64,000 nt of DNA, taken from positions 78,880-142,879 of the forward strand of contig JANQMX010000057.1 of NCBI GenBank assembly GCA_028279885.1, written 5' to 3'. Shown piece by piece: positions 3,014 to 13,715 of this stretch. The DNA is from Rhodovibrionaceae bacterium (GTDB lineage: Bacteria; Pseudomonadota; Alphaproteobacteria; Kiloniellales; DSM-21159). Made by a program: the position numbers and the translations under genes. Every line of letters begins with the position of its first letter. Position 1 is the first letter of the stretch. The notes beneath the pieces were generated by a model that saw only the letters and a list, made by a program, of their open reading frames with translations, ran no database searches and had not been told where the DNA came from.

Positions 3014-5077
3014 TCAGGCAGCTTCTGGCAGCCACACCGAGAATTTCGTGCCGATGCCTGGCTCGCTTTCGACGGACATCCTGCCGCCCTGCCGCTCGAT
3101 CAGCGTATGGCTGATCGACAGCCCAAGACCGGTTCCGCGATCTCGTTTGGTCGTGAAGAAGGGGTCGAAGACCTTCTGCAGGACCTCGGTCGGCATGCCG
3201 ACTCCACTATCCTCCACCTCGATCGTCACGCCGTCTCTGTCGTCGAGCCTGCTGTCGAAGGTGCGCAAAGTCATGCGTCCCCCGTCGGGCATGGCATGAA
3301 TGGCGTTGACCATCAAATTGACCAGCACCTGCTGCAGCTCCGTGCGGTTCATCACGATCAGCCGGGTCGCACTGTCCCCGCGCTCGATTGCGATATCCGA
3401 CTTGTGCAAGAGATGCTTGACCAGCGGTAGGCAGTCGGTGATGACGTCCGGCGGCCGATGGCTCTCGACATAGTCCGCATATTCCTCGGGTTTGGCGAAC
3501 TGAAGCAGCTTGGTCACGATCATGCTGATGCGGTGAATCTGCTCGTCCAAGAGCCGCAGTTCCGTCGCGGCCTGTTCAGCCTTGTCGCCCATGATGTTGC
3601 GGACGACTTCCAGATTGCCCTGCATGACGGCGATCGGATTGTTGATTTCGTGAGCAACGCCCGCCGTGATCTCTCCAATCGCCGCAAGCTTTTCCGACAT
3701 GATGAGCTGCTTCGTCGTCGCCTCCAATTGGCGATTGGCCAACTTGAGTTCGCGCGTGCGCTCTTCGACGCGCGCGTTCAGCTCCTCATTCCAGCTTCTC
3801 AGCTGGCGATCGCGCGCCTGCAGCCGGTCCAGGAGGTCGTCGAGGTGGGTCGCGACGCGGCCGATTTCGTCGTTGGCCTCATCGAGCCCGGTGCGCGCGC
3901 TCAGGTCTCCGCCTTCGACGCGGGCGATGGTGCCCGTCATGCGCTCCAGCGGCATGAAGATACCGCGCGCCCAGCGCAGGAAGATAGGAATGCTGGCCGC
4001 GGTGATGACGAGGAAAGCGAGGGCGATGATAAATAGCGTCTCGTATTTCATATCCTCGAAGGGCGCTTCGAGGAAGCCGACGTAGAGCATGCCGATGCGC
4101 TGGCCGAAGCTGTCGACGATCGGTTCATATGCGGAGATGTACCAGTCGTTGACGACGAACGCGCTGTCCAGCCAGGTTCGGCCCTCGTCGAGAACGGCAG
4201 AACGGACAATCGCCGATACGCGCGTGCCAAGCGCCCGGCGGCCTTCGAACAGCCTGACGTTAGTGCTGACGCGAACGTCTTCGAGAAACAGGGTCGCTGT
4301 GCCGCGGCTGCCCTCCGGCAGGCTCGCTTCCTGATAGACCAGGTCGTTGATCGTATCGATGAAGACAAGGTTCTGGTTCAGCAGGATGCCGCCGACCATC
4401 ACCCCCCGGCTCCCATCGCCGAAGCTGATCGGCGCGGCCGACTGGATCACCATGCCCCGGGTTTCCGTCGTTCGATCAGTTGGCACGGCGGCGGGCGTTG
4501 GCACGAGTTCCAGCCGTGATCTTTCAGCCAGATCGTCGGACAGCTCGGCCAGCTCATGATTTTCGAAAAGGTCGATTTCCGTATTGGCAATCCCCCGCAT
4601 GGCCGATGCAATGATCGGCCAATCGGTTCGCCGCGTCGTGGTCGTCGGTGCCGGGGCGGATGCGAAGACCCGGCCGTCGGGCTCGACGATATAGAGAAAG
4701 TCGAGACCGAGATCCCGCCGACTGGCATCGAGGTAAGAATCGATCTGTCCGTCGTCCGCCATGATGTCGCGGAACCGAGCCGACGCACCGAGCGCCTGAA
4801 TTCGATCCTCCGTGGTTTCGAGGATCCGAGACAGGTACTGGTGCGCGATCGTCAAATCACCATTCACCTTGGAGATCAGGGTCGCATCGAAGCGGTCGCT
4901 CCAGCGGCTGATCGTGATGGCGAGTAGCAGCGGCAGGATGACAAGCGTTGGCAGCAAGGCGATGGCGAGCAACCGAAAGCGGACCGACCGGCCCGGCTTC
5001 TTCGCCGTCACGCCCGGCGCAGGCTTGGCAGACTTCAGAGTGCCCGGTGTCAGAGCAGGTGACAGACCGTCATGCAT
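3014..5077 (-). CDS. Membrane sensor histidine kinase with Cache-type sensor domain
   Basis: 687 residues. Transmembrane helix 1 lies near 34-57, followed by a large periplasmic region (about 60-340) with Cache-like features such as FLYIVEPDGRVFAS, then TM2 near 346-368, a HAMP region (370-420) and a coiled coil (425-460). The H-box AHEINNP contains His476. The ATPase part shows an N-box (NAIHAM), G1 (DSGVGM) and G2 (GTGLGLS). The layout resembles DctB/NtrB-type kinases that phosphorylate NtrC-class regulators. It is co-transcribed with, and overlaps by 8 bp, the sigma-54 response regulator just upstream, its obvious partner. The ligand is unknown. The liv-type ABC operon about 1.4 kb beyond the regulator gene has a sigma-54 promoter, so sensing a solute taken up by that transporter is a reasonable inference. 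Confidence 0.92.
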   Translation of the reverse strand: MHDGLSPALTPGTLKSAKPAPGVTAKKPGRSVRFRLLAIALLPTLVILPLLLAITISRWSDRFDATLISKVNGDLTIAHQYLSRILETTEDRIQALGASARFRDIMADDGQIDSYLDASRRDLGLDFLYIVEPDGRVFASAPAPTTTTRRTDWPIIASAMRGIANTEIDLFENHELAELSDDLAERSRLELVPTPAAVPTDRTTETRGMVIQSAAPISFGDGSRGVMVGGILLNQNLVFIDTINDLVYQEASLPEGSRGTATLFLEDVRVSTNVRLFEGRRALGTRVSAIVRSAVLDEGRTWLDSAFVVNDWYISAYEPIVDSFGQRIGMLYVGFLEAPFEDMKYETLFIIALAFLVITAASIPIFLRWARGIFMPLERMTGTIARVEGGDLSARTGLDEANDEIGRVATHLDDLLDRLQARDRQLRSWNEELNARVEERTRELKLANRQLEATTKQLIMSEKLAAIGEITAGVAHEINNPIAVMQGNLEVVRNIMGDKAEQAATELRLLDEQIHRISMIVTKLLQFAKPEEYADYVESHRPPDVITDCLPLVKHLLHKSDIAIERGDSATRLIVMNRTELQQVLVNLMVNAIHAMPDGGRMTLRTFDSRLDDRDGVTIEVEDSGVGMPTEVLQKVFDPFFTTKRDRGTGLGLSISHTLIERQGGRMSVESEPGIGTKFSVWLPEAA

Positions 5078-6473
5078 TCCAGGCCGCGCACTTCCGGTCG
5101 ATCGTCTTCCGCGAGATGCCGAGCTGACGCGCAGCCTCCTCCCGGTTGCCGCCCACCTCCCTCAAGACCGACAGGATATGGCGGCGCTCGACCTCGGCAA
5201 GACTGCCTCCGTTTTTTGTCTGCGTCGGGCTTTCCGTGCCGAACTGATCGGGAAAGCGTCCCAAGATCAAGCTCCGCTCGATCACGTTGCGCAGCTCACG
5301 GACGTTGCCCGGCCAGTCGTAGCGCGCAAGCATGGTTTGGGCGCGCTCGTCCATGGGCAGCGGCGGCATGCCAAGCTGTTGCGACAGCCGAATCATCAGC
5401 AGCGCGGCAAGCTCTTGAACATCGTCGCCCCGGTCCTTGAGTGGCGGCAAGTGTATCTGCATGACGTTGATGCGGAAAAAGAGGTCGGCGCGAAACCGCT
5501 CCCGTTCGACCTGCAGGTTGAGGTCCGCATTGGTGGCGAAGAGAAGTCGCAGATCGACGGGGATCTCACGTTCGGCCCCCACGGGCCGCACCCGCTTGTC
5601 CTCCAACACCCGCAGCAGCTTGCTCTGCATCGGCAATGGCAGCTCGCCGATCTCATCGAGAAACAGAGTCCCGCCCTGCGCGTGCTGGAACAGCCCGTCG
5701 CGAGCGGCTTGCGCGCCTGTGAAAGCCCCCTTCACGTGACCGAACAGCTCGCTCTCGATCATCTCCGGAGGAATCGCCGCACAATTGACGGGAACGAAGG
5801 GCTTGTCGCTGCGGTCGGACAGGGAGTGAAGCATGCGCGCCGCGACCTCCTTGCCCGTTCCCGATTGCCCGGTGATCAGCACCGAGGTCGGCAGCGGCGC
5901 AACGCGCGCGATTGTCTCGCGCACCGACTGAATGGCTTGCGATTCCCCGATCAGGCGGTCGCTTAGACGATCGTCCGAGGAGGCTCGTAACTCGTAGCGC
6001 AGTACGTAGTTCTCACGCTGCAGTCTGACCCGGTCGAGGCAGCGCGCAACGGCGTTGAGGATCTGGTTCGACCGGAACGGCTTCAGCACAAAGTCCGCCG
6101 CCCCTGCGCGCAACGCCTGAATCGCCGTTTCCAGATCGGCATAGGCGGTGATGAGTATGGCGTCGGCGAAGAACCCAACGGCGCGCTGCTCAGCGAGCCA
6201 CTCGACCCCGTTCTTGCCCGGCATGAGATTGTCCAGGATCAAGACGTCGAAGTGATTCTCGTCGAGCTTGGCGGCCGCTTCCTCGGTATCCGCCGCGGTT
6301 TCGAGTCGCTTGCATCGAGGGCCGAGTGTGCGAACCAAAAAGTTGCGCATGCCAGGCTCATCGTCCACCACCAGGATCGACGCCTGGGCCAGCCAAGGCC
6401 CAAACTCCGGATTGCCATTCGGCTCCCTACTTCGGCTTGTAAGGTCGGCCTGTCTTTCCGCAACACGCGGCAT
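5070..6473 (-). CDS. Sigma-54-dependent response regulator, NtrC/DctD class
   Basis: 467 residues from the preferred ATG, which has a GGGAGG Shine-Dalgarno just upstream. An in-frame extension to 6542 would add 23 unlikely residues. The receiver domain (about 30-150) has phospho-acceptor Asp81 and Lys131. The AAA+ domain carries Walker A GQSGTGKE at 202-209 and the sigma-54 contact loop GAFTGA at 249-254. The C-terminus is a Fis-type helix-turn-helix (GGNREEAARQLGISRKT). It acts as an enhancer-binding activator of sigma-54 holoenzyme after phosphorylation by the overlapping kinase. The only sigma-54 promoter I found in the window lies upstream of livK, together with a dyad of the size bound by such proteins. 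That link is inferred. Confidence 0.94.
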   Translation of the reverse strand: MPRVAERQADLTSRSREPNGNPEFGPWLAQASILVVDDEPGMRNFLVRTLGPRCKRLETAADTEEAAAKLDENHFDVLILDNLMPGKNGVEWLAEQRAVGFFADAILITAYADLETAIQALRAGAADFVLKPFRSNQILNAVARCLDRVRLQRENYVLRYELRASSDDRLSDRLIGESQAIQSVRETIARVAPLPTSVLITGQSGTGKEVAARMLHSLSDRSDKPFVPVNCAAIPPEMIESELFGHVKGAFTGAQAARDGLFQHAQGGTLFLDEIGELPLPMQSKLLRVLEDKRVRPVGAEREIPVDLRLLFATNADLNLQVERERFRADLFFRINVMQIHLPPLKDRGDDVQELAALLMIRLSQQLGMPPLPMDERAQTMLARYDWPGNVRELRNVIERSLILGRFPDQFGTESPTQTKNGGSLAEVERRHILSVLREVGGNREEAARQLGISRKTIDRKCAAWNA

Positions 6474-6675: not shown

Positions 6676-7515
6676 CTAATGCGACATGAAGACCGGAACG
6701 GTCATACTCTCCAATACGGTTCGGGTAACACCGCCGAGGATGACCTCGCGCAGCTTGGGTGTGCCGTAAGCGCCCATGATCAACACGTCGGCGCGCGAAT
6801 TCGAGAGCTCGTTCATGATCACGCTAGACGTGCTGATGTCGCCCTTGGGCACGCGCATCACGGAGTTGCTAATGCCGTGCGCCTCCAGGTGACGCGACAG
6901 TCCCTCGCCCGGCTTGGTTTTCTGATAGTGCTCGATGTTCTCCGGATCGACGACGAGGATCACGGCTTCCTTCATCGTTTCCAGCAGCGGCAGCGCATCG
7001 TGCACCGCGCGCGTGGCGGCCTTGCTACCGTCCCAGGCGATCAGTCCCTTGGCGAAAGGAATCTCGTGTGCGCCGATGTAGGGCATGAAGATAACAGGGC
7101 GGCCCGACGAGAACATGACCTCTTCGGAAAGCTCAGCGACGAACGCGGCGTGCTCGCGGTCGGGGTTGGCCTGACGCAGAATGCTCACGTCGTGGATGCG
7201 GGCCAGGCGTGACAGCTTTTCCGGTGCCTTGCCGTCGGCGCCCTCGATGATATGGGTCCTGGTGCCGATGCCGGCCGTCTCGGCCAGCTTGCAAAACTCT
7301 TCGAGCGTCGAGTGCGCATGCGCGCGCGTCCTTTCTATGACCGCGTCGCCCTCGGAAACGCCCAGTTTCCGAAGGATGCTCGAGTGAGGCAGTGCGTCAA
7401 CCGCGACGCCTGTCAGCGTGGCATCGTGCGCCTTGGCGATTGCAAGTGCGCTGTCGATACGCTCCGCATTGGACTCGCCCTGGTCCAGGTAAACCAAGAT
7501 ATCTTTGAATTGCAT
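6676..7515 (-). CDS. Tandem-domain universal stress protein (UspA family)
   Basis: 279 residues starting at Met-Gln-Phe-Lys. A longer frame to 7665 adds a basic, non-homologous extension. It has two Usp domains, roughly 1-145 and 150-279. The second keeps the nucleotide-binding pattern GAYGTPKLREVILGG...T near the C-terminus; the first is degenerate, as in other tandem (UspE-like) proteins. These are cytoplasmic ATP/AMP-binding stress proteins of unsettled mechanism. It lies directly after the liv transporter genes and a small membrane peptide on the same strand, about 140 bp beyond the peptide, so it may belong to that operon. Confidence 0.9.
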   Translation of the reverse strand: MQFKDILVYLDQGESNAERIDSALAIAKAHDATLTGVAVDALPHSSILRKLGVSEGDAVIERTRAHAHSTLEEFCKLAETAGIGTRTHIIEGADGKAPEKLSRLARIHDVSILRQANPDREHAAFVAELSEEVMFSSGRPVIFMPYIGAHEIPFAKGLIAWDGSKAATRAVHDALPLLETMKEAVILVVDPENIEHYQKTKPGEGLSRHLEAHGISNSVMRVPKGDISTSSVIMNELSNSRADVLIMGAYGTPKLREVILGGVTRTVLESMTVPVFMSH

Positions 7516-7740: not shown

Positions 7741-8823
7741 TCAACTCTCTTGTTTGCTCAAGCCTTTATGGTCGCGCGGCACCTCGTTTCTGAGTGACCG
7801 AGACCGCAGAAACCTCTGCTTGATGTTGTCCCAAAGCTTGGCCATCCCAAGCGGCTCGTAAATCATGAACACGATGATCAAAACGCCGAAAACCACCTGT
7901 TCGATCGAGGAGATGATCGTCGCGTCGATTGCGCCGTGAAAGAGGTTATTGCCGACGCTGTTCAGCACCACGGGAAAAAGCAGGATGAAGGCCGCACCGA
8001 TGAATGCGCCGTTTATGGTGCCGAGGCCGCCGAGAATGACCATGAAGAGGATCTCGAACGACAGCTTGATGTCGAAGGCCACCGGTTCCAGTGACTTCAG
8101 ATAAGTGAACGCAAACAACGCCCCGGCGACGCCGCAATAGAACGCGCTTATCGCAAAGGCCTGCAGCTTCGTTCTCAACAACGAGATGCCCATGGATTCG
8201 GCGGCGATATCCATGTCGCGCACCGCCATCCAGTTTCGCCCCGTACTGCCACGCGCCATGTTCATCGCAAGCAGTGTCAGGACGGTTACCACCACGACGA
8301 CGACGAAGAACATCTCCATCGGCGAGGTGAAGGCGTGACCGAAGATGACGATATCCTGCGCCGTGATGATGCCCGAGGTGTCGTAGTTCTTGAACCAGCC
8401 GAACTTGTCGATCATCCAGATGATGAAGAACTGCGAGGCGAGCGTCGCCACCATAAGGTAGATGCCCCGGACCCTCAGGCTCGGCAAACCGAACAGGATG
8501 CCGAAGCCAGCGGCGACCAAGCCGGATAAGCCCAGCGCGACGAAAAAAGGGATGTCCGGCACACGCAGAATGAAGTTGAAGCAGGCGAATGCGCCGGCAG
8601 CCATGAAGCCCGCCGCCCCGAGGGACAATTGCCCCGTGTAGCCCATAACGATCTGCTGGCCGATCGCGGCAAGCGCGAGGCAGAGCCAGGGTATCAGGAT
8701 CGACGTGTACCAATAGTCGGTCTCGACGATCGACGGAATGACGAGGAAAGCCAGGGCCATCAAGACGACGAAGTTTACCACGTCGCCTTTTGTGTAGGTC
8801 ATGAAGACCGGTTTCGCGCTCAC
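7741..8823 (-). CDS. livM: Branched-chain amino-acid-type ABC transporter permease, LivM family
   Basis: 360 residues. The GTG start has a strong GGAGGAG Shine-Dalgarno. About eight to nine hydrophobic helices are visible, and the family signature GYTGQLSLGAAGFMAAGA lies near 80-97. The EAA-like cytoplasmic loop, AESMGISLLRTKLQAFAISA, is near 210-230. It is the second membrane subunit of a HAAT (hydrophobic amino acid/amide) ABC importer, together with LivH, and acts in the inner membrane. It follows livH by 15 bp. The substrate cannot be deduced from the permease: HAAT systems carry branched-chain amino acids, urea, short amides or aromatic acids. Confidence 0.93.
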   Translation of the reverse strand: MSAKPVFMTYTKGDVVNFVVLMALAFLVIPSIVETDYWYTSILIPWLCLALAAIGQQIVMGYTGQLSLGAAGFMAAGAFACFNFILRVPDIPFFVALGLSGLVAAGFGILFGLPSLRVRGIYLMVATLASQFFIIWMIDKFGWFKNYDTSGIITAQDIVIFGHAFTSPMEMFFVVVVVVTVLTLLAMNMARGSTGRNWMAVRDMDIAAESMGISLLRTKLQAFAISAFYCGVAGALFAFTYLKSLEPVAFDIKLSFEILFMVILGGLGTINGAFIGAAFILLFPVVLNSVGNNLFHGAIDATIISSIEQVVFGVLIIVFMIYEPLGMAKLWDNIKQRFLRSRSLRNEVPRDHKGLSKQES

Positions 8824-8838
8824 GTGATGCTCCTCCCC

Positions 8839-9741
8839 CTAGACCCGTCTGATGATTTTTTCACCGAACAGGCCTTCGGGCCTGTACAGCAGGAAGAAGA
8901 TCGCCAGGACGTAAGGCGCCCAGCCCTCGATAGCGCCGCCGAAGAAGGGCCCGACATAGACTTCGAGGATCTTTTCTGTCGCCCCGATAATCAGGCCGCC
9001 GACGATTGCCCCCGGGATCGAGGAGAAGCCGCCTATGATCAAAACGGGCAAGGCCTTGAGCGCGAGATCGACAAGGGCAAACTGCACCCCGGCTCTGGCG
9101 CCCCACATCATCCCGGCGATCAGCGCAACGATACCGGCGGCCGTCCACACCATCAGCATGATGTTCTTTAACGGGATGCCGATCGAACTGGCCGCACCCG
9201 GATCGTCGGCGACCGCGCGCAAGCCAAGGCCCATCTTGGTGTATTTGAACAGCAGCGCGAGGCCGACGATCATCACCGTGGCGACGGCGCCCGCCGTAAG
9301 GTCCAGTGCGCTGATGAAGAGTCCCAGGTTGTCCACGATCCAGGGGATCGGGAAATCGCCGATACCGAGGTCCAGCCGCCGCACCTCGACGCCCCAGGCC
9401 GCCTGGGCCAGCCCCTCAAGCACGAAGCCGAGCCCGATGGTGGCCATCAGCAGCGTATCTTCGCTCTGGTTCATAAGCGGCTCGAGCACCAGGCGTTCCG
9501 TGCCCAAGCCAACGAGGAACATCAGAAAGATGGTGGCTATGAAGGCCAACGGAAACGAAAGCCCGAGCTCCATCAAGCCGACGAACGCGAGAACGGCGAA
9601 AAACACCATCGCGCCCTGGGCAAAGTTGAAAGTCGACGACGCCTTGTAGATCAGCACGAAGCCCAGCGCGACCAGCGAGTACATAGTCCCGGCCAGAAGC
9701 CCACCGACCAGAACTTCGATGAAGAAGAGAAATTCAGTCAT
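8839..9741 (-). CDS. livH: Branched-chain amino-acid-type ABC transporter permease, LivH family
   Basis: 300 residues, the usual length. It has multiple membrane helices and the LivH signature GLLAGTMYSLVALGFVLIYK near the N-terminus, followed by STFNFAQGAMV. The cytoplasmic loop RAVADDPGAASSIGIP near 190-205 is the coupling segment to the ATPase. It pairs with LivM to form the pore. The start overlaps the end of livG by 8 bp, so translation is coupled. Confidence 0.94.
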   Translation of the reverse strand: MTEFLFFIEVLVGGLLAGTMYSLVALGFVLIYKASSTFNFAQGAMVFFAVLAFVGLMELGLSFPLAFIATIFLMFLVGLGTERLVLEPLMNQSEDTLLMATIGLGFVLEGLAQAAWGVEVRRLDLGIGDFPIPWIVDNLGLFISALDLTAGAVATVMIVGLALLFKYTKMGLGLRAVADDPGAASSIGIPLKNIMLMVWTAAGIVALIAGMMWGARAGVQFALVDLALKALPVLIIGGFSSIPGAIVGGLIIGATEKILEVYVGPFFGGAIEGWAPYVLAIFFLLYRPEGLFGEKIIRRV

Positions 9742-10531
9742 GGGCGACTCCCAGGTATGCGTCGATGACGTTTTGATTGGATCGGACGTCTTCGGGCGGT
9801 CCGTCGGCGATGACTTTGCCGTAGTCGAGCACCACCACGCTGTCGGAGATATCCATCACCACGCCCATGTCGTGTTCGATGAGAACCATCGTGGTGCCGA
9901 GCTCATCGTTGACCTTGAGAATGAAGCGGCACATTTCCCGCTTCTCCTCGACGTTCATGCCGGCCATCGGCTCGTCGAGCAGGAGGACCTCGGCTTCCGT
10001 GGCCAGAGCGCGGCCCAACTCCACTTTCTTTTGCAAGCCGTAGGGCAGCTTGCCGACCGCTGTATCGCGGATATCCTCGATCTCGAGAAACTCGACGATC
10101 TCTTCGCTTTTCTCGCGGTTTTCCTTTTCCTCGCGCCGAGCCTTCGGAAGCTGAAAGGCCACCTCCAGGAAGTTGGCGTTCATGTGCAGCCGGCGGCCCA
10201 CCAAGATGTTGTCGAGAACCGACATGCGCTTGAACAGCGCGAGGTTCTGGAACGTTCGCGAAATGCCCTTTCGCGCAATGAAGTTCGGGTTGATCTTCTC
10301 AAGCACCTGACCCTTGAAGGCCACGGTGCCTTCCTGCGGCTTATAGATTCCGTTGATGCAGTTCAGCATCGAGCTCTTGCCGGCGCCGTTGGGGCCGATG
10401 ATGGCACGAATCTCGTGCTGGAGGACCTTGAAAGACGTACCGGTGATGGCCCTGACGCCGCCGAAGCTGAGCGAGATGTTGCTCAACTCCAGAATCGGAG
10501 CGCCGATGGGAAAGCTTCTCTCCGCTTGCAT
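9734..10531 (-). CDS. livG: HAAT ABC transporter ATP-binding protein, LivG family
   Basis: 265 residues. Walker A is GPNGAGKS near 48-55, the ABC signature is the variant LPYGLQKKVELGRAL, and Walker B is LLLDEPMAGM, followed by the switch His in IEHDMGVV. The LivG-type C-terminus ends in NQNVIDAYLG. It is one of two cytoplasmic ATPases of the importer. It sits between livF and livH, and the order K-F-G-H-M is compatible with one operon. The 59-bp gap to livF is small. Confidence 0.95.
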   Translation of the reverse strand: MQAERSFPIGAPILELSNISLSFGGVRAITGTSFKVLQHEIRAIIGPNGAGKSSMLNCINGIYKPQEGTVAFKGQVLEKINPNFIARKGISRTFQNLALFKRMSVLDNILVGRRLHMNANFLEVAFQLPKARREEKENREKSEEIVEFLEIEDIRDTAVGKLPYGLQKKVELGRALATEAEVLLLDEPMAGMNVEEKREMCRFILKVNDELGTTMVLIEHDMGVVMDISDSVVVLDYGKVIADGPPEDVRSNQNVIDAYLGVAHD

Positions 10532-10590: not shown

Positions 10591-11391
10591 TCACGCGCTC
10601 TCTGCCCTGAGCACGTCGCGGAAGTTCTTTCGGCCTTCTTTTGAAATGCCGAGGTAGAGTTCCTTCACCTTGTCGTCCGTCAGCAGGCTTTCGGCGGTCC
10701 CGTGCAGCATCACGTGACCGGTTTCGATGATGTAGCCGTAGTCGGCATTCCGGAGCGCAACGTTGGTATTCTGCTCGGCGAGCAGAATGCTGACGCCCTC
10801 CTTCTCGTTCAGCTCCTTGACGATGTTGAAGATCTCGGCGACCAGCTGGGGCGCGAGGCCCATCGAAGGCTCGTCGAGCAGCAGCATTTTCGGTTTGGCC
10901 ATCATGGCTCTGGCGACGGCGATCATTTGCTGTTCGCCGCCAGAGGTGAACCCGGCCTGGCTCTTCCGCCTTTCCTTGAGTCGCTTGAAATAGGCGTAGA
11001 TCTTTTCGAGGTCGTTCCTGATCTCGGACTTCGACAGCTTTCGCGAATAGGCGCCGGCGATGATATTCTCTTCGACGGTCAAGTGCCCGAAGCAGCGCCT
11101 GCCTTCGAGCACCTGAACCATGCCGAGACCGACCATCTCGGCGGGCCCTTGGTTCTTCACCGGGGTTCCGTCGTAGGTGATGGTGCCTTTGGTCACCTTG
11201 CCGCGCTCCGCCGCCAGCATCGTGGACACGGATTTCAGGGTCGTGCTTTTTCCGGCGCCGTTGCCTCCCAGCAACGCGACGATGCTGCCCCGCGGCACGG
11301 TGAGCGAAACGTCATGCAGGGCGGCGATGACGTTGTCGTAAACGACCTCGATCGTATCGATCACCAATATGTCGTCTGAGTTCGCGCTCAT
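10591..11391 (-). CDS. livF: HAAT ABC transporter ATP-binding protein, LivF family
   Basis: 266 residues. Walker A is GGNGAGKST near 43-51, the signature is TSGGEQQMIAVARAM and Walker B is LLLDEPSMGLAP. The switch residue is Gln in LLAEQN, as is normal for LivF. It forms the ATPase pair with LivG. The gene follows livK after a 145-bp gap that holds a stable hairpin, a common way to leave more binding-protein mRNA than transporter mRNA. Confidence 0.94.
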   Translation of the reverse strand: MSANSDDILVIDTIEVVYDNVIAALHDVSLTVPRGSIVALLGGNGAGKSTTLKSVSTMLAAERGKVTKGTITYDGTPVKNQGPAEMVGLGMVQVLEGRRCFGHLTVEENIIAGAYSRKLSKSEIRNDLEKIYAYFKRLKERRKSQAGFTSGGEQQMIAVARAMMAKPKMLLLDEPSMGLAPQLVAEIFNIVKELNEKEGVSILLAEQNTNVALRNADYGYIIETGHVMLHGTAESLLTDDKVKELYLGISKEGRKNFRDVLRAESA

Positions 11392-11536: not shown

Positions 11537-12886
11537 TCAACACTGCTTGGGCGTGATGTTGTTCTCGCTGGCGAACTTGGCCGCGGAGTCCTCGACCAAT
11601 TGGCGGATGTAGCCGGGATCCAGCGGGGCCTCCCAGTCCGTGACCTGCACGAACTTGTCGCCGTCCCACTGCATCATGGCGAACTTGCCGGCGCCTTCGT
11701 GGTTCTCGCAGGAGATGGCGAAGGGTGCGACCATGCCTTTGATGCCGATTTCCTCGAGGCGCTCCTCGGTCATGTTCAGGGCTTCGTAGCCGTCCCTGAA
11801 CTCGGCACCCGTGACGGCCTGGCCGACCTTGTTGTGCATCTCCTGGGCGTTCCGCATCGCCTCGATCCACATGACGGCAGCACCAAGACCGCGGTTCCAG
11901 TACACGGACCCGACACGGCTTTCCTCGGCCAGGTTGCCCTTGCCGGCGCCATAGACCTGTTCCTTGATCCGTTGCACCAGCGGGAAATGATCGCCCGGCA
12001 GCGCGTTGGCCATCGCGTAGGTGCCCTTGGCGGAATCCCCGGCCGGGTACATGTCCTCCTCGGCCGCACCGAAGGTCACGTAGATCAGGCGCTCGCGCGG
12101 AAACCCGACACGCGCGGCGTTGGTCATCCCGGTCGAGTTCATGCCGGACCCGGCGCCCCAGAAAGTCACCCAATCAGGCTGTTCCCGTCGGACCTGCAGC
12201 CACTGCGACTGCTGCTCCAACCCTGGTGGCGGAATCGAGATCTCCACCAGCTCGACGCCCCAATCCCCGGCGATCTTTCGCATCGCGGGCAGAGGCTCGC
12301 GGCCATAGGCGGAGTCGATATGAAGGTGCACGATCTTCTTGCCCCTCATGTTTTCGATGCCGCCTTCCTGCTCGGCCATGAACTTCATTTTGACGGCGAT
12401 CTGCGACCAGTAATGGCTGGCGGCATTGAAGACCCAGGGCCAGACCCGGCCGTCAGCGGCGTCGGTCCGTCCATAACCGTACTGGGCGAGAACGACCTCG
12501 TCGTCGGCCATGCGGTTGATGACCGCGTAAGCGCCGGGGGTGCCCAGCGTGTCGAACACAACAATGCGCTGACCGTCCTTTTCGAGCAGGCGCTGATAAC
12601 ACTCGACCGTCTTGACCGCGTTGTATTCGGTCTCGCATTCCTGCCACGTCAGCATGACGCCGTTCACGCCGCCGTTCATATTGACGTAGTTCATGTAATC
12701 GATTTGCGCGCCGTAATAGCCCGTACCCATGGCCGAGTAGGGACCAACGCGGCTACTGGCGACGGGGAAATACTGCGTTTCTTGGGCGCCCGCGGCTTGT
12801 GGCAACACAAGAGGCGAAGCCAGCGTCGCCACCGCGGCGACCCCGGCGACCGCGGGCAGCCAATTTCGCAATCTCCTTCGTTTCAT
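11537..12886 (-). CDS. HAAT ABC transporter periplasmic substrate-binding protein
   Basis: 449 residues with a typical signal peptide (basic start MKRRRLRNW, hydrophobic core, cleavage after AAGAQ near 33-35) and a GGGAGG Shine-Dalgarno. The mature part has the Peripla_BP_6/LivK-type pattern, including RVGPYSAMGTGYYGAQIDYMNYVN and FGAAEEDMYPAG. It lacks the LIV-specific features I would expect for certain leucine binding, and is nearer the group annotated only as 'ABC transporter substrate-binding protein'. It delivers ligand to LivHM in the periplasm. It is the first gene of the operon and lies behind a long leader with a sigma-54 promoter. Ligand unknown. Confidence 0.9.
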   Translation of the reverse strand: MKRRRLRNWLPAVAGVAAVATLASPLVLPQAAGAQETQYFPVASSRVGPYSAMGTGYYGAQIDYMNYVNMNGGVNGVMLTWQECETEYNAVKTVECYQRLLEKDGQRIVVFDTLGTPGAYAVINRMADDEVVLAQYGYGRTDAADGRVWPWVFNAASHYWSQIAVKMKFMAEQEGGIENMRGKKIVHLHIDSAYGREPLPAMRKIAGDWGVELVEISIPPPGLEQQSQWLQVRREQPDWVTFWGAGSGMNSTGMTNAARVGFPRERLIYVTFGAAEEDMYPAGDSAKGTYAMANALPGDHFPLVQRIKEQVYGAGKGNLAEESRVGSVYWNRGLGAAVMWIEAMRNAQEMHNKVGQAVTGAEFRDGYEALNMTEERLEEIGIKGMVAPFAISCENHEGAGKFAMMQWDGDKFVQVTDWEAPLDPGYIRQLVEDSAAKFASENNITPKQC

Positions 12887-13270
12887 TTACGTCCTCCCTT
12901 GGTTGAAAACTGCATTGGGAATTCCGGCGAACACCGCATCCGTGCGACGACAGGCGTCATGCCCGACGCATGGCGCAGCATTGCCGTGGTGGTTTTCTGA
13001 GCCCGAAGGTTTGATCGCCATCTGCCCTGTTCCCGACCGTCTCAGCCGAGACGCGCGGGCAGACTGCGAGTCACACCGAATGCAATCGTCACGCGTTATC
13101 CTCCCCGCCCGGATGCCGTCCCGGGTCGCGATCATTCTTTGTCTCCGTGTGAGCGTGGGCGGCGCTACGCGCCGCCTCCTCCACGGAGGCTTCAAGGTCG
13201 CGAGATCGACAGTGGCGGTTTGGCGTTTTCGCTCGTTTGGCCGATCTCGACCGCTTTTGCGTGGGAGGAA

Positions 13271-13286
13271 AGCAAACGCCGTGCCA
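13271..13286 (-). promoter_or_regulatory. Sigma-54 (RpoN) promoter for the liv operon
   Basis: On the minus strand the sequence reads TGGCACG-GCGT-TTGCT, an exact match to the -24/-12 consensus TGGCACG-N4-TTGCW with correct spacing. Transcription would start near 13260, giving a livK leader of about 370 nt. It is the only good match to this consensus I found on either strand of the window. Confidence 0.75.
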
Positions 13287-13337
13287 AGAAATTAACTGTT
13301 TATAAATCAGACGAGTAACACATCGCGCTTTCGCTAA

Positions 13338-13371
13338 TTGGACAAAATGTCCAAACGCTCGGACAAATTGG
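13338..13371. promoter_or_regulatory. Putative enhancer site: TTGGAC-N5-GTCCAA dyad plus half site
   Basis: TTGGACAAAATGTCCAA at 13338-13354 is a perfect 6+6 dyad with a 5-bp centre. A related half site, GGACAAATTGG, follows at 13361-13371. The dyad centre is about 86 bp upstream of the predicted sigma-54 start. The size, spacing and distance match binding sites of Fis-type enhancer-binding proteins such as NtrC. The candidate binder in this window is the response regulator at 5070-6473 (inference). Confidence 0.55.
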
Positions 13372-13715
13372 TACGGCCCGGCGTCATTGCGACATCTCGT
13401 TGTTGTCGCACCGCCATCGCCGGTCAGGCCGGCATTGTGGGCATTGCCGACTAGGCTCTCTACATCATTCGGACTCTCGCCCTTGGCAGGGCTGTTGTCG
13501 CGAGGAGATTGGTCGCCACAGTGGCGGATAGGCCGACACAAGAGTTCGTGTCGCTGCTGGCGCCACCATGCAACCTTTCGCTGCTTTGACTACTTTGGCG
13601 GCTGCCGCCCCCGGCAAGATCGCAGCGTTAAGAGCTACGAGCTCGGAGGTCGAACGACATCTTTATGTCGAGAGCTTTAGCCATCTCTTGCTGAAAGCCG
13701 ACAAAGACATCATTC

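Follow-up and report, generated by a model that had tools for sequence, protein, structure and literature searches.

The question raised by this locus is whether an NtrC-class two-component pair switches on the neighbouring Liv-type ABC operon from a sigma-54 promoter and, if so, in response to which solute. The window, i.e. the whole stretch of DNA that was analysed (64,000 nucleotides from a Rhodovibrionaceae bacterium), contains the following genes and gene parts:

11537-12886, minus strand: livK-like substrate-binding protein (Peripla_BP_6; PDB relative 4ru0)
10591-11391, minus strand: livF-like ATPase (domain match and homologues in relatives' loci)
9734-10531, minus strand: livG-like ATPase (domain match and homologues in relatives' loci)
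8839-9741, minus strand: livH-like permease (domain match and homologues in relatives' loci)
7741-8823, minus strand: livM-like permease (domain match and homologues in relatives' loci)
6676-7515, minus strand: Usp-domain gene (PF00582), between livM and the regulator gene
5070-6473, minus strand: NtrC-class response regulator with receiver, AAA+ and Fis HTH domains (its orthologues are linked with livK or OFA genes)
5712-5729, minus strand: GAFTGA loop of the regulator, the sole GAFTGA in six frames of the window
3014-5077, minus strand: sensor kinase (Cache, HAMP, HisKA, HATPase)
4223-4273, minus strand: kinase codons R269 to T285, with R269, T272 and T285 (R-x2-T-x12-T pattern)

All parts of a Liv/HAAT importer are represented, i.e. 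a Peripla_BP_6 binding protein, two BPD_transp_2 permeases and two ABC ATPases; in the curated NCBIfam Liv models, the F, G, H and M proteins scored below the cut-offs, and LivK had no NCBIfam match. The regulator comprises a receiver, an AAA+ domain with Walker motifs, GAFTGA and arginine finger, and a Fis HTH, and the Cache domain of the kinase matches sCache_3_3, Cache_3-Cache_2 and, more weakly, sCache_3_2. The domain calls made in an earlier note on this DNA (regulator, Cache-type kinase, Liv-type ABC proteins) held in this domain search, and the single GAFTGA in six frames agrees with its statement that the regulator at 5070-6473 is the only sigma-54 activator of the window. Its suggestion that the regulator might also control the Usp gene was not borne out: no homologue of this gene was found at E 1e-10 in the relatives' loci, and it was rejected as a member of the conserved unit for this reason.

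The region upstream of livK contains the following predicted features:

13338-13354, no strand: proximal operator dyad TTGGAC-N5-GTCCAA, TTGGACAAAATGTCCAA (perfect; centred 73 bp above the -12 GC)
13360-13374, no strand: degenerate second operator dyad (21 bp upstream of the first dyad; position conserved)
13286-13271, minus strand: sigma-54-type -24/-12 promoter, TGGCACGGCGTTTGCT (exact match; same dyad distance in L059, L060, L062, L191)
about 13260, minus strand: predicted livK transcription start (from the -24/-12 site)
12887-13260, minus strand: livK 5' leader (about 370 nt, read from sequence)

The consensus of sigma-54 promoters is TGGCAYR-N4-TTGCW, of which TGGCACG-N4-TTGCW is a stricter form. 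TGGCACGGCGTTTGCT has 0 mismatches to the stricter form, in agreement with the exact minus-strand site claimed before, and the source genome (G000) has one match to the RpoN family PF04552. The looser consensus has 5 exact sites in the 5.63-Mb genome against 5 for the reversed control, so that the weight of the site comes from its position. The perfect dyad, which had been placed about 86 bp above the start, is present at about -85 and is the sole perfect copy of TTGGAC-N5-GTCCAA in the genome; the 17 other places listed have one mismatch, which is chance level since the reversed control gives 16. One of these (C34:5004, L004) was rejected as a promoter site because it lies among overlapping frames with no clear promoter context. 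Among 300 first-order random 64-kb sequences, the dyad occurred in 1, an exact -24/-12 site in 20, and the pair of both within 40-110 bp in 0. The extra half site reported next to the dyad is there in sequence, but it is better described as a weak full second dyad (5 mismatches of 12 to TGGACA-N3-TGTCCA), centred 94 bp above the -12.

An Rfam search of the leader (12887-13260) matched no family, nor did the livK leaders of the searched relatives; the Rfam livK RNA, which is reported for Pseudomonadales in the accessible part of PMC2864571, was rejected as an explanation of the leader on these grounds. Long livK leaders recur in the relatives' Liv loci, for which no function was found. Separately, a hairpin of the form GCCAGG-stem-CCAAGC (or CCCAGC) lies about 120-250 bp upstream of livK in L064, L066, L067, L070, L072, L073, L075, L077 and L078, all without the sensor pair, and had no Rfam match where searched; it is a candidate for an RNA that regulates the orthologous operon. 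A loose version of its pattern also occurs at 5 further places in 4 loci, probably by chance.

Orthologues of the window's livK with 81-91% identity were found mostly in marine alphaproteobacteria. From 162 confirmed candidates 80 loci were kept, 54 of them titled Pelagibacter or Pelagibacteraceae; repeated loci were not counted (L185 = L063; L151, L030, L182 and L192 = L059, L060, L069 and L071; L187 = L088). The gene is patchily distributed: it is present in 5 of 385 genomes of the class (the window's own counted), in 8 of 394 genomes of the family of G261, in 2 of 43 and 2 of 397 genomes of two orders, and in 1 of 8 and 1 of 36 genomes of two families, where the match was each time an already known genome and no new livK locus was gained. 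Eleven other genomes of the window's own family either had no LivK or had copies no more than 43% identical, and a search of plasmids gave only relatives below 60% identity. One locus (L066), whose livK is 85% identical to the alphaproteobacterial one, comes from a record titled Flavobacteriales, probably through a binning error.

Regulator and kinase genes adjoin livK in 9 of the 80 kept loci, downstream as in the window in L059, L060 and L062 (73-78% identity) and upstream of livK in L063, L065, L069, L071, L091 and L100 (46-48% identity; L065 has a broken regulator with 64% identity over a 137-residue fragment). Other genomes yielded further cases, with the pair upstream in L184 and L186 and downstream in L191. 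When 22 livK genomes were searched whole, full-length regulator orthologues (at least 47% identity) were found in 8, all at the livK locus, and a ninth linked copy is the broken one; in the 13 genomes without a linked pair, full-length relatives did not exceed 41%, and G844, which belongs to these 13, had a 48% match that covers just the AAA+ part. The dyad follows the pair: with up to 2 mismatches it was found in 9/9 kept livK loci with the pair and in 0/66 without it (71 loci lack the pair, and 5 were dropped for having less than 300 bp upstream), compared with 2.6% of random 650-bp stretches of the same loci; the corresponding figure for a -24/-12 site with up to 1 mismatch is 0.9%. These counts and the conserved spacing support the link that the earlier note had drawn between regulator, dyad, promoter and Liv operon.

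Conservation of the -24/-12 bases above livK had been proposed as a check, and the outcome is divided: the site is kept in L059, L060, L062 and L191 (0-1 mismatch) and is absent in eight livK loci with an altered regulator. Where a Liv locus has a GAFTGA regulator (5/5), 72-74 bp separate the best dyad from the -24/-12 site (centre to -12 GC 73, 73, 72, 72 and 74 bp in the window, L059, L060, L062 and L191), although these count as about four independent loci since L059 and L060 are near relatives. The weaker second site stands at 93-96 bp in the same five loci; its position is thus kept, with 1-4 mismatches, in L059, L060, L062 and L191 and in six of the OFA loci described below. The strongest case for a sigma-54 architecture is L191, where the operon starts with an acyl-CoA ligase gene, and two dyads and TGGCATCCCCCTTGCT precede this gene and not livK, i.e. 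the predicted sites move with the operon start. An rpoN gene was found in 4/4 sigma-54-type genomes searched, a count that leaves out the genome of L191 (G905).

In the eight other loci (L063, L065, L069, L071, L091, L100, L184 and L186) no -24/-12 site with up to 1 mismatch was found within 650 bp upstream on the livK strand. Two dyads are spaced 42 bp apart in these loci, and in some of them the upper dyad is degenerate. A weaker third site follows about 42 bp further on, and a TTGAC hexamer stands 99-104 bp below the middle dyad; dyads and TTGAC are aligned in 8/8, and the hexamer suggests a sigma-70-like promoter. Of the regulators of these loci, 7/7 read have lost the GAFTGA loop, carry L in place of R at the arginine finger and M in place of R in sensor II, and have an altered Walker B; compared with the window protein, their receivers are 60-65% identical and their HTH regions 63-70%, against 35-40% for the AAA+ domain. 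The lack of a -24/-12 site in these eight loci therefore fits the mechanism, for their regulators are without GAFTGA in 7/7 readable cases and the eighth is broken. In this eighth locus (L065:5909-7600, Jiella pelagia) the regulator matches over 137 residues only, and kinase, dyads and the TTGAC promoter candidate are present; the broken regulator was excluded from motif tables and tree. For the TTGAC type, rpoN was found in 5/6 genomes searched, the exception being the metagenome assembly G841 (L091); searches of three Pelagibacter-titled genomes (G837, G839, G842) did not find it either.

The best 120 listed relatives of the window regulator type all have GAFTGA, and the best 120 listed relatives of the other type all lack it, with the arginine at the finger position kept in 5 of the latter. 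In the larger tree, the GAFTGA-less Liv type forms one clade (SH-aLRT 100). Presence of GAFTGA and of a -24/-12 site agree in 25/25 loci with a regulator read; the labels for the site were set by hand from scans (sites upstream of the operon with up to 1 mismatch; look-alikes within genes uncounted), so that this agreement is a tally, not a blind test, and it represents few events, not 25, as the best tree needs two changes and its well-supported branches force one.

The same unit also precedes a second family of transporters. Orthologous pairs adjoin an OFA-family transporter gene in 9 loci (Shinella, Sinorhizobium sojae, Rhizobium, Paracoccus aminovorans, and genomes G047, G349, G370, G276 and G310), with a regulator identity of 67-78% in 7/9, 61% in L211 and 49% in L208. 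In 6/9 loci (L202, L203, L204, L209, L210, L214) a -24/-12 site is preceded, at 72-73 and 94-95 bp, by dyads with 0-2 mismatches; in L205 the dyad distances are 87 bp (1 mismatch) and 129 bp (0 mismatches), and L208 has a -24/-12 site without a dyad. In L211 (Paracoccus aminovorans; L211:13787-13871) four dyads, forming two pairs 22 bp apart, lie between divergent OFA and regulator genes; GAFPGA replaces GAFTGA in its regulator, and no -24/-12 site was found in the intergenic stretch. The OFA protein scores best with the NCBIfam model of an L-lactate transporter (305.8 bits; cut-off 320), followed by models of oxalate/formate antiporters, all below their cut-offs.

In four further loci (L206, L207, L212, L213) the regulator, which lacks GAFTGA in all four, stands beside genes for an FDH3 formate dehydrogenase, and weak dyads (1-3 mismatches) but no -24/-12 site with up to 1 mismatch were found above the FDH3 operon; one-mismatch look-alikes inside genes further down in L206 (6316) and L207 (12890) were not counted. 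The dyad pairs at L206:13877-13918 and L212:6655-6696, above FDH3 operons, are 41 bp apart with 1-3 mismatches and resemble the arrays spaced by 42 bp in Liv loci of the sigma-70-like type.

With respect to the solute, genes that match an NAD-type formate dehydrogenase occur in the fetched livK flank of 9 of the 80 kept loci, i.e. in 8 of 26 not titled Pelagibacter and in 1 of the 54 so titled; in this sole Pelagibacter-titled case (L128) the Fdh-alpha match is at 33% only, against 57-71% in the seven other livK loci with the alpha gene in view, and L060 has FdsG and FdsB at the end of its stretch. Their placement at livK varies (upstream in either orientation, downstream, or beyond the pair). 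Fdh-alpha is also present in L191, and in L208 FdsGB, an Fdh-alpha relative (35%), the OFA gene and the pair occur together. These names were taken from NCBIfam, where the match to FdsG (192 bits) and that to Fdh-alpha (655 bits) fall just under the cut-offs, and FDH3 beta is over its cut-off. The 64-kb window itself gave no formate dehydrogenase in a tblastn search at 1e-20. An acyl-CoA ligase gene is present in the operons of L190 and L191, which counts against formate because formate would not need a ligase.

The R-x2-T-x12-T pattern of the kinase was found in 24/24 kinases compared. For the formate receptor PacF, the accessible part of PMC12501870 reports that changes of R142, T145 and T158 affect formate binding. 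The pattern is also present in both solved chemoreceptor domains that match the kinase (8py0 and 8py1), for which the ligands are not given; it is therefore consistent with formate, not decisive, and may mark the whole Cache family. On this evidence from sequence, the solute sensed and imported is probably formate, and the livK-like protein a probable formate-binding protein; that the kinase senses the solute, as the earlier note had it, is plausible.

We thus propose, as a probable reading, that the neighbouring pair would switch on the Liv-type operon, probably on external formate, with the dyads as its operator and the -24/-12 site as the sigma-54 promoter. The Cache domain would bind formate or a close monocarboxylate; the kinase would then phosphorylate the regulator, as is established for the family; the Fis domain of the regulator would bind both dyads, centred near -85 and -106, as their conservation suggests; and the GAFTGA-bearing AAA+ ring would open the promoter for sigma-54 polymerase, a step again established for the family, whereupon the Liv-type importer would be made. 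Sequence backs the sites, their fixed spacing, the linkage of the pair, the same unit before OFA genes, and the lack of a -24/-12 site where GAFTGA is not intact. Two wider proposals are offered jointly and tentatively, as a possibility short of probable: that marine alphaproteobacteria, SAR11 among them, use the Liv-type operon as an ATP-driven importer dedicated to formate, under a formate-sensing pair and a fixed operator that would also serve formate transporters of the OFA family and, with alterations, the operons for FDH3; and that a natural rewiring took place, in which at least one branch of the regulator shed the sigma-54 engine and its promoter turned sigma-70-like, with operator and DNA-binding helix kept.

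The same switch might serve another small carboxylate (lactate, oxalate, glyoxylate or pyruvate), with formate dehydrogenase as a frequent neighbour since formate would be a breakdown product. The OFA protein's best models, L-lactate and then oxalate/formate, all below cut-off, and the ligase of L190 and L191 speak for this, as do the pyruvate-sensing two-component systems reported to be coupled to transporters in E. coli; we regard it as somewhat unlikely, given that two kinds of formate dehydrogenase, NAD-type and FDH3, recur as neighbours and that Cache_3-type receptors are reported to bind formate (PMC12501870, accessible part). The operon could also encode a transporter for branched-chain amino acids, as the Pfam name of the permease family and some source names of the binding protein would have it, with the site then serving general nitrogen control by NtrC itself. 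This is very improbable: the dyad TGGACA-N3-TGTCCA tracks the regulator of this pair and not livK loci at large, it moves with the operon start and also precedes OFA transporters, and the proteins reached no NCBIfam Liv model at cut-off, with LivK unmatched.

For the clade without GAFTGA, the regulator might be a repressor or a dead relic, the TTGAC promoter constitutive, and the likeness of the operators inherited but unused. The lost AAA+ motifs and the broken Jiella copy would fit such decay; the alignment of two dyads 42 bp apart and TTGAC in 8/8 loci, the better conservation of receiver and HTH than of AAA+, and the report, in the accessible part of PMC10274813, that R. capsulatus NtrC without GAFTGA activates sigma-70 promoters make it unlikely. 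Finally, a -24/-12 look-alike and a palindrome could be neighbours by chance, as exact -24/-12 matches are no commoner in the genome than their reversed controls; the absence of the pair from all 300 random sequences and the spacing shared with four relatives' Liv loci and six OFA loci leave this reading scarcely credible, and conservation nearly excludes it.

In the literature searched, we found no Liv-type operon under a sigma-54 two-component pair, no ABC importer for formate, no formate-sensing kinase acting with sigma-54, no OFA transporter under sigma-54, and no case in which orthologous operons with one operator stand beside an intact regulator in some genomes and its GAFTGA-less orthologue in others; a search for ligands of SAR11 binding proteins showed no such system either. 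Added here are the probable solute, a further transporter family that shares the switch, and the matched change of regulator and promoter. If true, a strongly conserved marine importer now filed under 'branched-chain amino acid' would have its substrate named, and such bacteria would have an ATP-driven route for formate; the characterised formate transporters named in the accessible part of PMC7117926 are FdhC and FocA only, which belong to the FNT family and are not ATP-driven. There would also be matched orthologous regulator/promoter pairs, sigma-54 and sigma-70-like, on one operator, and an activator's change of polymerase would become testable part by part.

Two sigma-54-controlled transport systems are close in design. 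In rhizobia, DctB/DctD governs C4-dicarboxylate uptake through dctA by means of sigma-54; shared with the present system are the kinase with an NtrC-class activator, the dedication to one carboxylate transporter, the paired upstream sites and the -24/-12 promoter, whereas operator and transporter family differ and, here, OFA and Liv ABC transporters exchange under one operator. AauS/AauR of Pseudomonas controls the ABC importer aatJMQP, likewise by two-component sigma-54 control, but that importer belongs to the polar amino-acid family and the operator is different. With the Liv/HAAT importers (solved relative 4ru0) the operon shares the gene set KFGHM and the Peripla_BP_6 binding protein; it differs in that no curated Liv model is reached and formate dehydrogenases recur as neighbours. 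NtrC-class proteins without GAFTGA are reported at sigma-70 promoters for R. capsulatus (Rhodobacter capsulatus) and Caulobacter in the accessible part of PMC10274813, and here, unlike there, intact and GAFTGA-less orthologues stand beside orthologous Liv operons, with the -24/-12 site present or absent to match. The formate chemoreceptors PacF, McpF and Atu0526 have a Cache_3-type sensor as well, PacF with the same R-x2-T-x12-T spacing (PMC12501870, accessible part), whereas the sensor is here a histidine kinase for which formate is the predicted ligand. FdhC and FocA share formate, the predicted substrate, with the Liv-type importer and differ from it in protein family.
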